Of a DNA stretch of 64,000 nucleotides, positions 1 through 1,903 are shown one piece after another. Source of the DNA: Gilvimarinus polysaccharolyticus (GTDB taxonomy: Bacteria > Pseudomonadota > Gammaproteobacteria > Pseudomonadales > Cellvibrionaceae); contig NZ_LFIJ01000001.1 in the NCBI RefSeq assembly GCF_001187555.1, positions 238,307 to 302,306 of the forward strand, written 5' to 3'. How positions within the stretch are numbered: position 1 is the first letter of the stretch; the number at the start of each line of letters is the position of its first letter. Under the pieces are notes generated by a model. That model was not told the DNA's origin, ran no database searches, and was given only the letters and a program-made list of their open reading frames with translations. The position numbers were made by a program, and so were the translations under genes.

Positions 1-788
1 TCGATTTGCCCCGATTGCGCATAAGCCGCAAGTGCGTTACCCCAGCAGGTTAGCTCAATGGCGGCGGGGTCGATGCCGCGCTCTTTCATTAAGTGGGCGG
101 TTTTGGGGACCGACAGCGGATCGCTTACGCCCCAATCGGCCGAGCTGTCGACAATAATGCGCTCGGGGCCGTACTGGCGAACGATTTCGGTCATGCGCTC
201 GGAGCCCATTTTGGTGTTGGGATAAATAGTAAAAGCGGCCCAAGCACCGGCATCTAACACGCTTTGCACGGTTTCTTCGTTATTGTGGTCGATTACCAAC
301 TTGTGGGGCGGAACACCCATTTCGAGGGCGACATCAATACTGCGAATAACGCCGTTCTTTTTGTCACGGTGAGGTGAGTGTACCATCACCACCATATCGT
401 GCTCGACGGCAAATTTAAGCTGTGCTTGGTAGATAAATTCTTCGGCTGGCGTGATTTCGTCGTAGCCAATCTCGCCGATGGCAACAACGCCTTCTTTCAG
501 TGCAAAGTTGGGTAAAATCTCTAAAACCTCGCGGGCAAGCCCTTCGTTATTGGCCTCTTTAGAGTTAATGCCAATGGCGCAATAGTGGGCAATGCCAAAC
601 TGCGACGCGCGAAAACGCTCCCAGCCGACTAGGCTTGAAAAATAATCGACAAAACTACCCACGTTAGTGCGCGGCTGGCCCAGCCAAAACGCGGGCTCGA
701 TGACGGCGCGAATACCCGCGGCGGCCATGTTTTGGTAGTCATCAGTGGTGCGGCTGACCATATGAATATGCGGGTCAAAGAATTTCAT
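1..788 (-). CDS. eboB: TatD-like metal-dependent hydrolase, EboB-type (partial, runs off the left edge)
   Basis: About 262 codons are present and the C-terminus lies outside the window. The protein opens with a metal-binding H-x-H (DPHIHM). Further metal-ligand type residues follow in order: the Glu in GEIGYDE, the His in VHSPHRDK, the His in IDHNNEE and the Asp in VDSSADWG, as in the amidohydrolase/TatD superfamily. The stretch EPAFWLGQPRT near residue 31 is typical of the TatD-related member of Ebo/EDB clusters rather than of DNase TatD. The start ATG overlaps the stop of the upstream EboA gene (ATGA, 785-788), so the two are translationally coupled. Ebo proteins are thought to move a precursor metabolite from cytoplasm to periplasm. 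The substrate here is unknown. Confidence 0.8.
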   Translation of the reverse strand, partial: MKFFDPHIHMVSRTTDDYQNMAAAGIRAVIEPAFWLGQPRTNVGSFVDYFSSLVGWERFRASQFGIAHYCAIGINSKEANNEGLAREVLEILPNFALKEGVVAIGEIGYDEITPAEEFIYQAQLKFAVEHDMVVMVHSPHRDKKNGVIRSIDVALEMGVPPHKLVIDHNNEETVQSVLDAGAWAAFTIYPNTKMGSERMTEIVRQYGPERIIVDSSADWGVSDPLSVPKTAHLMKERGIDPAAIELTCWGNALAAYAQSGQI

Positions 789-1696
789 AGCTCACTCTCG
801 CTGTTGTCGGTTACTAAATGGGCAAATTGAGTTTGATTAAGTTGACCACCCAAAGCCGCATCAATAGCGTGTGCGACTTGAATGTCTGACTCGGTTTCGG
901 CTAGCTGTTGTACCGCCGTGTACTGCTCGGCGCGGGCTAAGCCGAGCACGATCGCGGAGCGGCTGCTGGCATCGGCGGTAGGCCATAGACACTCAGCTAA
1001 GGCACGGCTGCGCTCGGCGTGGCTGGATTCAAGGCATAACCATAAATCGTGGCTAATCACGCGGCCAGCACTGGCTCGCTCATCGGCTAGATCAAGTGCA
1101 ATACGGGTTAGTTCGGCGCTACGGCGCTCGTCTAACCCGATAACGCGATGCAGTGGCAGCTCTAAGAAAAGTGCCTTAATGACCAGCTGGTTCCAGCCGG
1201 TGGCGTCAAAATGTTTAACAGGGTAGGGGTTATCCAACGCCATCGCGCTAAATACGCTCACCATATTGCTGCGGCAGCCTTCACCCGCGCGCCAAACAAA
1301 TCGTTCGGCAGCCGGCAGTAGCGCTAACGCACGATACAGCGCACAGGTTTCGCCCTCGTCGGCATACACAAATAAAGACTCAAAGCTCTCTGTGAAGCTC
1401 GGCTCGGTTAAATCGTTGCGGGCACAGATCAGTGCCACCCGTAGCAGCTCCAGCAAATTCCAATGCTGTGGCGCCCAATCGGGGGCGGCGTTTTTGCAGG
1501 CTGCCAGCTCGGGCTCGCTAAGCGTAAGTGGTACTCGTTTGGCGTGGCGGCTAGCCATGGAGATAAGCGCGCTAAAGCGCGAGTGTTCGGCGCCGGCGGC
1601 TATCTCGCGTTGTGACTTTTGCCAAAAATCGAGGGCCGCGTCGCTAAGCCGTGGTTCTAGTAATTGCGCAAGTAGTATTATTGTTTGATCGGTCAT
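785..1696 (-). CDS. eboA: EboA-domain protein, metabolite-traffic cluster
   Basis: This 303-residue, mostly helical protein has no signal peptide or membrane span. Its C-terminal third carries the run LELPLHRVIGLDERRSAEL, the hallmark stretch of EboA-domain proteins. A TatD-like partner follows directly with a 4-nt overlap, which supports the assignment. EboA is the first gene of the conserved Ebo/EDB clusters of cyanobacteria, Pseudomonas and others, usually with a UbiA prenyltransferase, a dehydroquinate-synthase-like enzyme and further genes. Those would lie to the left of the window. The molecular function of EboA is not known. No strong Shine-Dalgarno sequence precedes the ATG. It is divergent from djlA. 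Confidence 0.75.
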   Translation of the reverse strand: MTDQTIILLAQLLEPRLSDAALDFWQKSQREIAAGAEHSRFSALISMASRHAKRVPLTLSEPELAACKNAAPDWAPQHWNLLELLRVALICARNDLTEPSFTESFESLFVYADEGETCALYRALALLPAAERFVWRAGEGCRSNMVSVFSAMALDNPYPVKHFDATGWNQLVIKALFLELPLHRVIGLDERRSAELTRIALDLADERASAGRVISHDLWLCLESSHAERSRALAECLWPTADASSRSAIVLGLARAEQYTAVQQLAETESDIQVAHAIDAALGGQLNQTQFAHLVTDNSESEL

Positions 1697-1903
1697 AGAA
1701 TTTCGCTACTTTGGTGAAGCGTCGATTATACGTAATCGCCCGAGGGTTATCGAGCTACGCGAGCAAATGCATGTTCTGTATGTGGTAACGGAGCCTGCAC
1801 TGTAAAGATATGTGGCTCAGATGTTAACGTCACGGAGTTCATCGGTGTTTGCTTAATAATGGTAAGCTTGCGCTTTATTAGCAATCTTATAGTCGAGGAC
1901 TGC

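Follow-up and report, generated by a model that had tools for sequence, protein, structure and literature searches.

The window analysed here, a 64,000-nucleotide stretch of Gilvimarinus polysaccharolyticus DNA (NZ_LFIJ01000001.1, positions 238307-302306), begins within a complete six-gene eboABDEFC cluster, and the assignment of its first genes to ebo is close to certain. The cluster is of a known but little-understood kind, associated with bringing a metabolite into the periplasm, its gene order having already been published in PMC5133447 among the arrangements of other phyla. We consider it a complete, functional member of the ABDEFC lineage that most likely makes a cyclitol-containing, membrane-associated helper letting a metabolite or precursor cross the inner membrane, and we give this reading a probability of about one half.

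The ebo cluster at the window edge

The initial annotation had described EboA and a TatD-like EboB as a coupled pair on the minus strand, placed at the edge of an ebo cluster. Both reading frames are present and share ATGA at the eboA stop, the in-window eboB frame (3-788, minus strand, 262 aa) being truncated by the window edge. Adding the genome stretch to the left brought out all six genes, including the EboD, EboE, EboF and UbiA-family EboC that had been predicted there, so the description was borne out. The genes are co-directional in the order A-B-D-E-F-C (Table 1), with overlaps of 40 bases between eboD and eboE and 17 bases between eboF and eboC, and a gap of 72 bases between eboE and eboF, all counted from the first listed starts. 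No transporter gene was seen among the six in the open reading frame list and family searches. In L002:9600-16200, a stretch spanning the whole cluster, the coding strand has no promoter-like sites besides the two upstream of eboA; over both strands of these 6601 bases three sites were found against a shuffle mean of 5.8, and the shuffle mean near eboA is 0.7 per 401 bases.

Table 1. Features of the ebo cluster in window-relative coordinates (L002 flank coordinate minus 14307)
Feature	Position	Strand	Size or distance	Remark
eboA	785..1696	-	303 aa	first cluster gene; EboA-domain profile match
eboB, TatD-like metal hydrolase	-108..788 (1..788 inside window)	-	298 aa	complete
eboD	-1271..-108	-		left of window edge
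eboE	-2371..-1232	-		left of window edge
eboF	-3868..-2444	-		left of window edge
short eboC	-4586..-3852 (L002:9721-10455)	-		left of window edge
eboA stop/eboB start overlap, ATGA	785..788	-		read from sequence
promoter-like site TCGATA - 17 - TATAAT	1725..1753	-	29 bases before eboA	consensus match only
weaker promoter-like site	1799-1827	-		upstream of eboA; consensus match only

Profile searches gave each protein a family. As anticipated, the 303-aa product matched the NCBIfam EboA_domain model NF035938 (147 bits, cut-off 50); it scored 192.5 bits against the narrower EboA_family NF035937, under the cut-off of 320, and a Pfam search returned no family for it. EboB, 55-95% identical to EboB of six other genomes in alignments, matched Pfam TatD_DNase PF01026 (44.6 bits, cut-off 27), and EboE, a TIM barrel, matched NF035939 (414.6 bits, cut-off 250). 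EboF belongs to the type I phosphodiesterase family (Pfam Phosphodiest PF01663, 189 bits, cut-off 23) and EboD to the sugar phosphate cyclase superfamily (PF01761, 111 bits; PF24621, 107 bits). EboD passed the cut-off of NF004852, which is named 3-dehydroquinate synthase (528.6 bits versus 333), and fell under that of the AroB model TIGR01357 (197.7 bits versus 305). EboC matched the UbiA family PF01040 (64.4 bits, cut-off 34.2). Because the short EboC scored 77.5 bits against the curated NCBIfam EboC model, under its cut-off of 250, automatic annotation may miss eboC of the ABDEFC lineage; automatic names such as 3-dehydroquinate synthase, phosphodiesterase and UbiA prenyltransferase may likewise mislead for ebo proteins.

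The AlphaFold model of EboA (mean pLDDT 95) is an all-helical, HEAT-like solenoid, for which Foldseek found nothing at E 0.001 or below. Placement in a known fold family was rejected, the best Z being only 9.3 amid many HEAT/armadillo proteins, a score that may reflect a common helical arrangement.

The distribution of EboA was counted by profile scores over the cut-off, with the window's own genome included. EboA is present in 7 of 8 genomes of the genus and 34 of 144 of the family, where one more genome gave a weak match only. Among genomes drawn from the class and the order it was found in 14 of 369 and 7 of 293, respectively. The view that ebo clusters are rare in gammaproteobacteria thus stands for the class and the order and fails for this lineage. 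In the stretches fetched from the 34 family genomes the order was ABDEFC in 18, DECABF in 8, DCABEF in 3 and ABCDEF in 3, making four different complete orders, and 2 held A and B only. The family therefore holds several kinds of ebo cluster, and in the window's genus the cluster is nearly fixed.

The two loci with eboA and eboB alone (L144 of G298 and L152 of G341) showed no other ebo gene within the 20 kb fetched. An adjoining eboA-eboB pair, with the other ebo genes absent from the fetched stretch, was also seen at seven Planctomycetota loci (L025, L029, L030, L033, L035, L038, L039), whose EboB is 74-81% identical to that of the window's relatives. All seven of these genomes carry an EboE-like gene elsewhere, over the curated cut-off in five; at L032 there was a weak EboE fragment only. 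The Planctomycetota pairs suggest that genes were exchanged long ago and that the cluster has split.

Short EboC in a single clade

We surveyed EboC across 126 EboA loci, 50 from genomes fetched by taxonomic place or from Trinickia and 76 from a contig scan. Loci L022-L024 were left out as duplicates lying on the same contigs as G316 (Cellvibrio sp. UBA8526), G343 and G344 (Marinimicrobium), with which they shared 31 of 31, 38 of 38 and 37 of 39 sampled 500-mers, respectively. EboC was found in 100 stretches (46 and 54), and 97 were kept after dropping three partial ones whose first Asp motif could not be read (G316, G732, L051). Counted from the first Asp motif to the C-terminus, EboC measures 177-180 residues in all 19 ABDEFC clusters and 229-248 residues in all 78 clusters of other orders. 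A new set from the family of Trinickia, which we take to be a Burkholderiales genus, held EboA in 6 of 200 genomes; beyond Trinickia itself, its three ABDEFC clusters gave 180-181 residues and its two DECABF clusters 229. Short EboC was thus seen in 19 of 19 and then in 3 of 3 new ABDEFC clusters, and full-length EboC in 80 of 80 clusters of other orders. In G316, a further ABDEFC cluster, the EboC frame is interrupted, and inspection by eye places its C-terminal half with the short forms.

The short form is about 54 residues shorter, and in an alignment of the window genome's EboC with 62 others the gap sits at a single place. The 19 short proteins have one or two hydrophobic segments after the RxE site versus three or four in 75 long ones, indicating that two helices have been lost. 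A FastTree phylogeny built on the joined EboB, EboD, EboE and EboF sequences of 89 clusters unites all 20 ABDEFC clusters in one clade (support 1.0), within which Trinickia branches outside all the others. The deletion is therefore most simply a single event, and the 19 of 19 are not 19 independent cases. Nine pairs of short EboC were compared by simple counting; seven gave dN/dS of 0.04-0.11, and in the other two dS was saturated. For all six genes the ratio was 0.00-0.21 where dS was unsaturated, with frames taken from the first start codon, so that extra N-terminal residues in some may inflate EboA of G337 and G339. Short EboC thus marks one clade under purifying selection and has been kept intact despite the two-helix loss. 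This clade, which includes Cellvibrio, a genus of which laboratory strains exist, offers a natural minimal version of ebo.

The short EboC of L024 (Marinimicrobium) was modelled by AlphaFold with a mean pLDDT of 91.7, as eight long helices and two short ones. The predicted structure has the UbiA fold with eight transmembrane helices, the last lying outside the aligned core and leaving seven within it; the window genome's own EboC has seven hydrophobic segments. The UbiA core consists of nine helices, against seven in the core of this AlphaFold model of L024. With VIA-align 2 the model aligned to 6m31 over 210 of 239 residues (Z 19.6, rmsd 3.7); UbiA-kind membrane entries filled the top eleven rows (Z 12.7-19.6), and soluble prenyl synthases appeared from 12.5 downward. 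The best Foldseek match was 7bpu (E 1.9e-05).

Residues at the assumed active sites

Residue analysis singled out three assumed reactions, namely transfer by EboC, hydrolysis by EboF and the choice of substrate by EboD. The first Asp motif, NDxxDxxxD, is kept in all 97 EboC with a readable motif. The second, DxxxD, was seen in none of the 94 EboC in which the region from 12 residues before to 14 after the RxE site could be placed (three of the 97 could not be placed); at the UbiA second-motif place, 94 of 97 carry a stretch of the type T-x-x-[SAG]-[RKQ]-x-E. The genome's own UbiA has both Asp motifs. Judged from these motifs, an EboC without the second DxxxD could still be active as a transferase. 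Our motif result differs from the account of the EboC site in PMC6282210, where the predicted site holds a cluster of four donor-binding residues.

In the type I phosphodiesterase/nucleotide pyrophosphatase family we take the six metal ligands to be the Asp and His positions given below, all six falling on Asp or His in 2gsn with one numbering offset; the EboF/2gsn alignment consists of short pieces, of which the third (H363) is weak by itself. The Thr nucleophile is kept in 86 of 89 EboF (one has K at this place), together with two of the six ligands, D194 in 88 and H413 in 89. The other four are replaced: D54 by V in 86, H214 by Q in 88, D257 by E in 88 and H258 by Y in 88, with gaps in the rest. 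EboF therefore has two of six ligands plus the Thr, short of the set expected for type I phosphodiesterase/nucleotide pyrophosphatase activity. The missing second Asp motif of EboC and the four lost ligands of EboF imply that these two assumed enzymes may not carry out their textbook reactions.

By contrast with the four solved dehydroquinate synthases, EboD follows another cyclase at the sites compared, a comparison made against solved enzymes. Its active-site stretches KVAL and LDFGH align with KVAL and VDFGH of 4p53, presumably a valiolone-type synthase, and it lacks the KY[GA] and LNLGH of those synthases. V209 and D267 occur in 89 of 89 EboD, as in 4p53 and unlike the four synthases; E205 is kept in 88 of 89, and H270 and H286 in all. 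EboD thus resembles cyclase 4p53, not dehydroquinate synthases, at the diagnostic sites. Since the genome has a further gene of the dehydroquinate synthase family at a different place, the shikimate pathway can probably do without EboD. In EboB, H7, H9, E106, H137, H168 and D218, which we take to be the expected metal-site residues, are kept in 88-89 of 89 proteins, and EboE has many invariant acids and histidines.

Proposed function, cargo and known ebo systems

In the proposed scheme, EboD would turn a phosphorylated sugar, probably sedoheptulose 7-phosphate, into a C7 cyclitol that EboE and EboB would modify. The UbiA-fold EboC, in the inner membrane, would join the cyclitol to a prenyl chain or hold such a chain there; EboA would scaffold the ebo proteins, and EboF would bind a phosphorylated ligand or catalyse with a non-standard site. 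Our data cover the genes with their families and order, the residues retained or lost, selection and phylogeny; we infer the helper compound, each reaction step and the same role in this bacterium. As the loss of two helices would change the membrane cavity of EboC, the donor or acceptor may differ in this lineage, or EboC may work as an oligomer. Speaking for this scheme are the co-directional genes, the 4p53-like sites of EboD, the EboB metal site, the EboC fold and first motif, the low dN/dS and the export phenotype in Nostoc, in which the scytonemin monomer reaches the periplasm only if eboA, B, C, E and F are intact (PMC6282210). Against it stand the absence of a recognisable cargo gene, the residue losses in EboC and EboF, and the naming of EboD by NF004852. 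The covered parts of the ebo literature, moreover, report no isolated ebo product, and the activity reported for a Maribacter EboC is on quinoline acids, not cyclitols (PMC9235831).

Alternatively, the role of the six genes might be purely biosynthetic: they would yield a finished isoprenoid-cyclitol compound that protects or repels, without any transport, and the Nostoc export defect would be indirect. Yurchenko et al. (PMC5133447) put this forward, and it draws on the enzyme-like ebo sequences, the want of a transporter gene among the six and the P. fluorescens EDB phenotype as given in PMC6282210. Since Nostoc ebo mutants retain the scytonemin monomer in their cytoplasm (PMC6282210) and the standard catalytic residues are absent from EboC and EboF, we regard this as possible but tentative. 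The same residue losses lend something to a carrier without synthesis, in which EboC and EboF mainly bind, an A-B-C-F complex moves the metabolite and the short EboC would be a trimmed-down part of that complex: 0 of 94 EboC have the second Asp motif, EboF retains two of six ligands, the eight-helix EboC of the model is under purifying selection, and the EboA solenoid is a common scaffold shape. Such a carrier is doubtful, however, given the Thr nucleophile retained in EboF, the metal-site residues retained in EboB and EboD, and the finding that crude membranes with the long Maribacter EboC farnesylate 8-hydroxyquinoline-2-carboxylic acid, the heated control being inactive (PMC9235831). That reported transfer also counts against a pure pseudoenzyme view, by which EboC and EboF are lipid-holding and phosphate-ligand-holding partners, not transferase and phosphatase; we think this unlikely. 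Were it true, ebo would be an undescribed kind of small-molecule transfer system and the eight-helix EboC its minimal form. As for a decaying or silent relic, the shortness of EboC and its score under the curated model could be read that way, but all six frames are open in this genome and its sisters, dN/dS lies far under 1 and the short EboC is common to the whole clade. The selection test already contradicts a relic, which we consider barely credible.

Right of the cluster lies a divergent DnaJ-like gene (DjlA by eye) and left of it a YidB-like gene. The nearest gene of a polyene-type cluster is 7.4 kb left of eboC. This cluster (L021, L002:1-2291), presumably of the aryl-polyene (APE) type, comprises ketosynthases, an ApeP-like dehydratase, an aromatic amino acid lyase, a halogenase-like flavoprotein, an acyltransferase, a thioesterase and an AMP-binding enzyme. 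A DUF1501 and DUF1800 gene pair at L002:3167-6439, left of the cluster and separated from it by a long gene whose start is lipoprotein-like, showed no link to ebo. That ebo serves the aryl-polyene-type pathway is suggested by the position of its ketosynthases, lyase and dehydratase left of ebo and by ketosynthase genes near ebo in six of the seven ebo-bearing genomes of the genus. Yet genus-mate G338 has the DjlA gene, TauE and ketosynthases here and no ebo, its DjlA-TauE gap measuring 4.8 kb; ebo and ketosynthases lie on separate contigs in G336; and seven of the window genome's own polyene proteins had no close counterpart in any of 13 ABDEFC loci from other genera (10 extended downstream, most with about 10 kb or less upstream), the positive control G334 within the genus matching as expected. 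A dedicated ebo-polyene link is thus unsupported, and we consider it very improbable. Outside the genus, G314 alone had distant ketosynthase matches downstream (25-29% identity, L210:11053-16872), possibly another polyketide cluster.

No cargo gene was recognisable in the examined flanks, and no cargo-naming neighbour was common to several genera. The exported metabolite suggested by the initial annotation is thus neither favoured nor contradicted by the neighbourhood. Clustering of the flank genes of 19 of the 20 ABDEFC-type loci (L031 left out) gave genus-level synteny, and the cargo could not be read from it; among the 25 largest gene families, families 0 and 1 span genera, and their first residues resemble those of regulators and transporters. 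The genes ahead of eboA in G313 resemble, by eye, nadD, rsfS, rlmH and penicillin-binding genes, which would be housekeeping functions.

The cluster shares its six families, co-directional and clustered, with the ebo operon of eustigmatophyte plastids, Bacteroidetes and Cyanobacteria (PMC5133447); the order there is ABCDEF rather than ABDEFC, and EboC is about 54 residues shorter here. With the Nostoc punctiforme cluster (PMC6282210) it has the EboA, B, C, E and F families in common, but its EboC is short, and the same function in this bacterium is putative. The EDB cluster of Pseudomonas fluorescens NZI7, likened here by the description in PMC6282210, likewise represents a gammaproteobacterium with a full ebo set, to which extra genes and a nematode phenotype are added. 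Maribacter Ubi-297, the EboC that transfers farnesyl in crude membranes (PMC9235831), shares the UbiA fold and first Asp motif; its model has ten helices, against eight predicted transmembrane helices in short EboC. How the ebo genes aid metabolite passage to the periplasm is the general question behind the minimal, short-EboC version. The closest solved fold to short EboC is the archaeal DGGGP synthase 6m31; by comparison, a stretch of two helices and the second Asp motif are missing from the short EboC. The short EboC, the absent second motif and the EboF ligand loss were not found in the covered parts of published ebo protein analyses, supplements aside. New in this work are the tie between short EboC and the order ABDEFC, the loss of the second motif in EboC and of metal ligands in EboF, and the likeness of EboD to 4p53.
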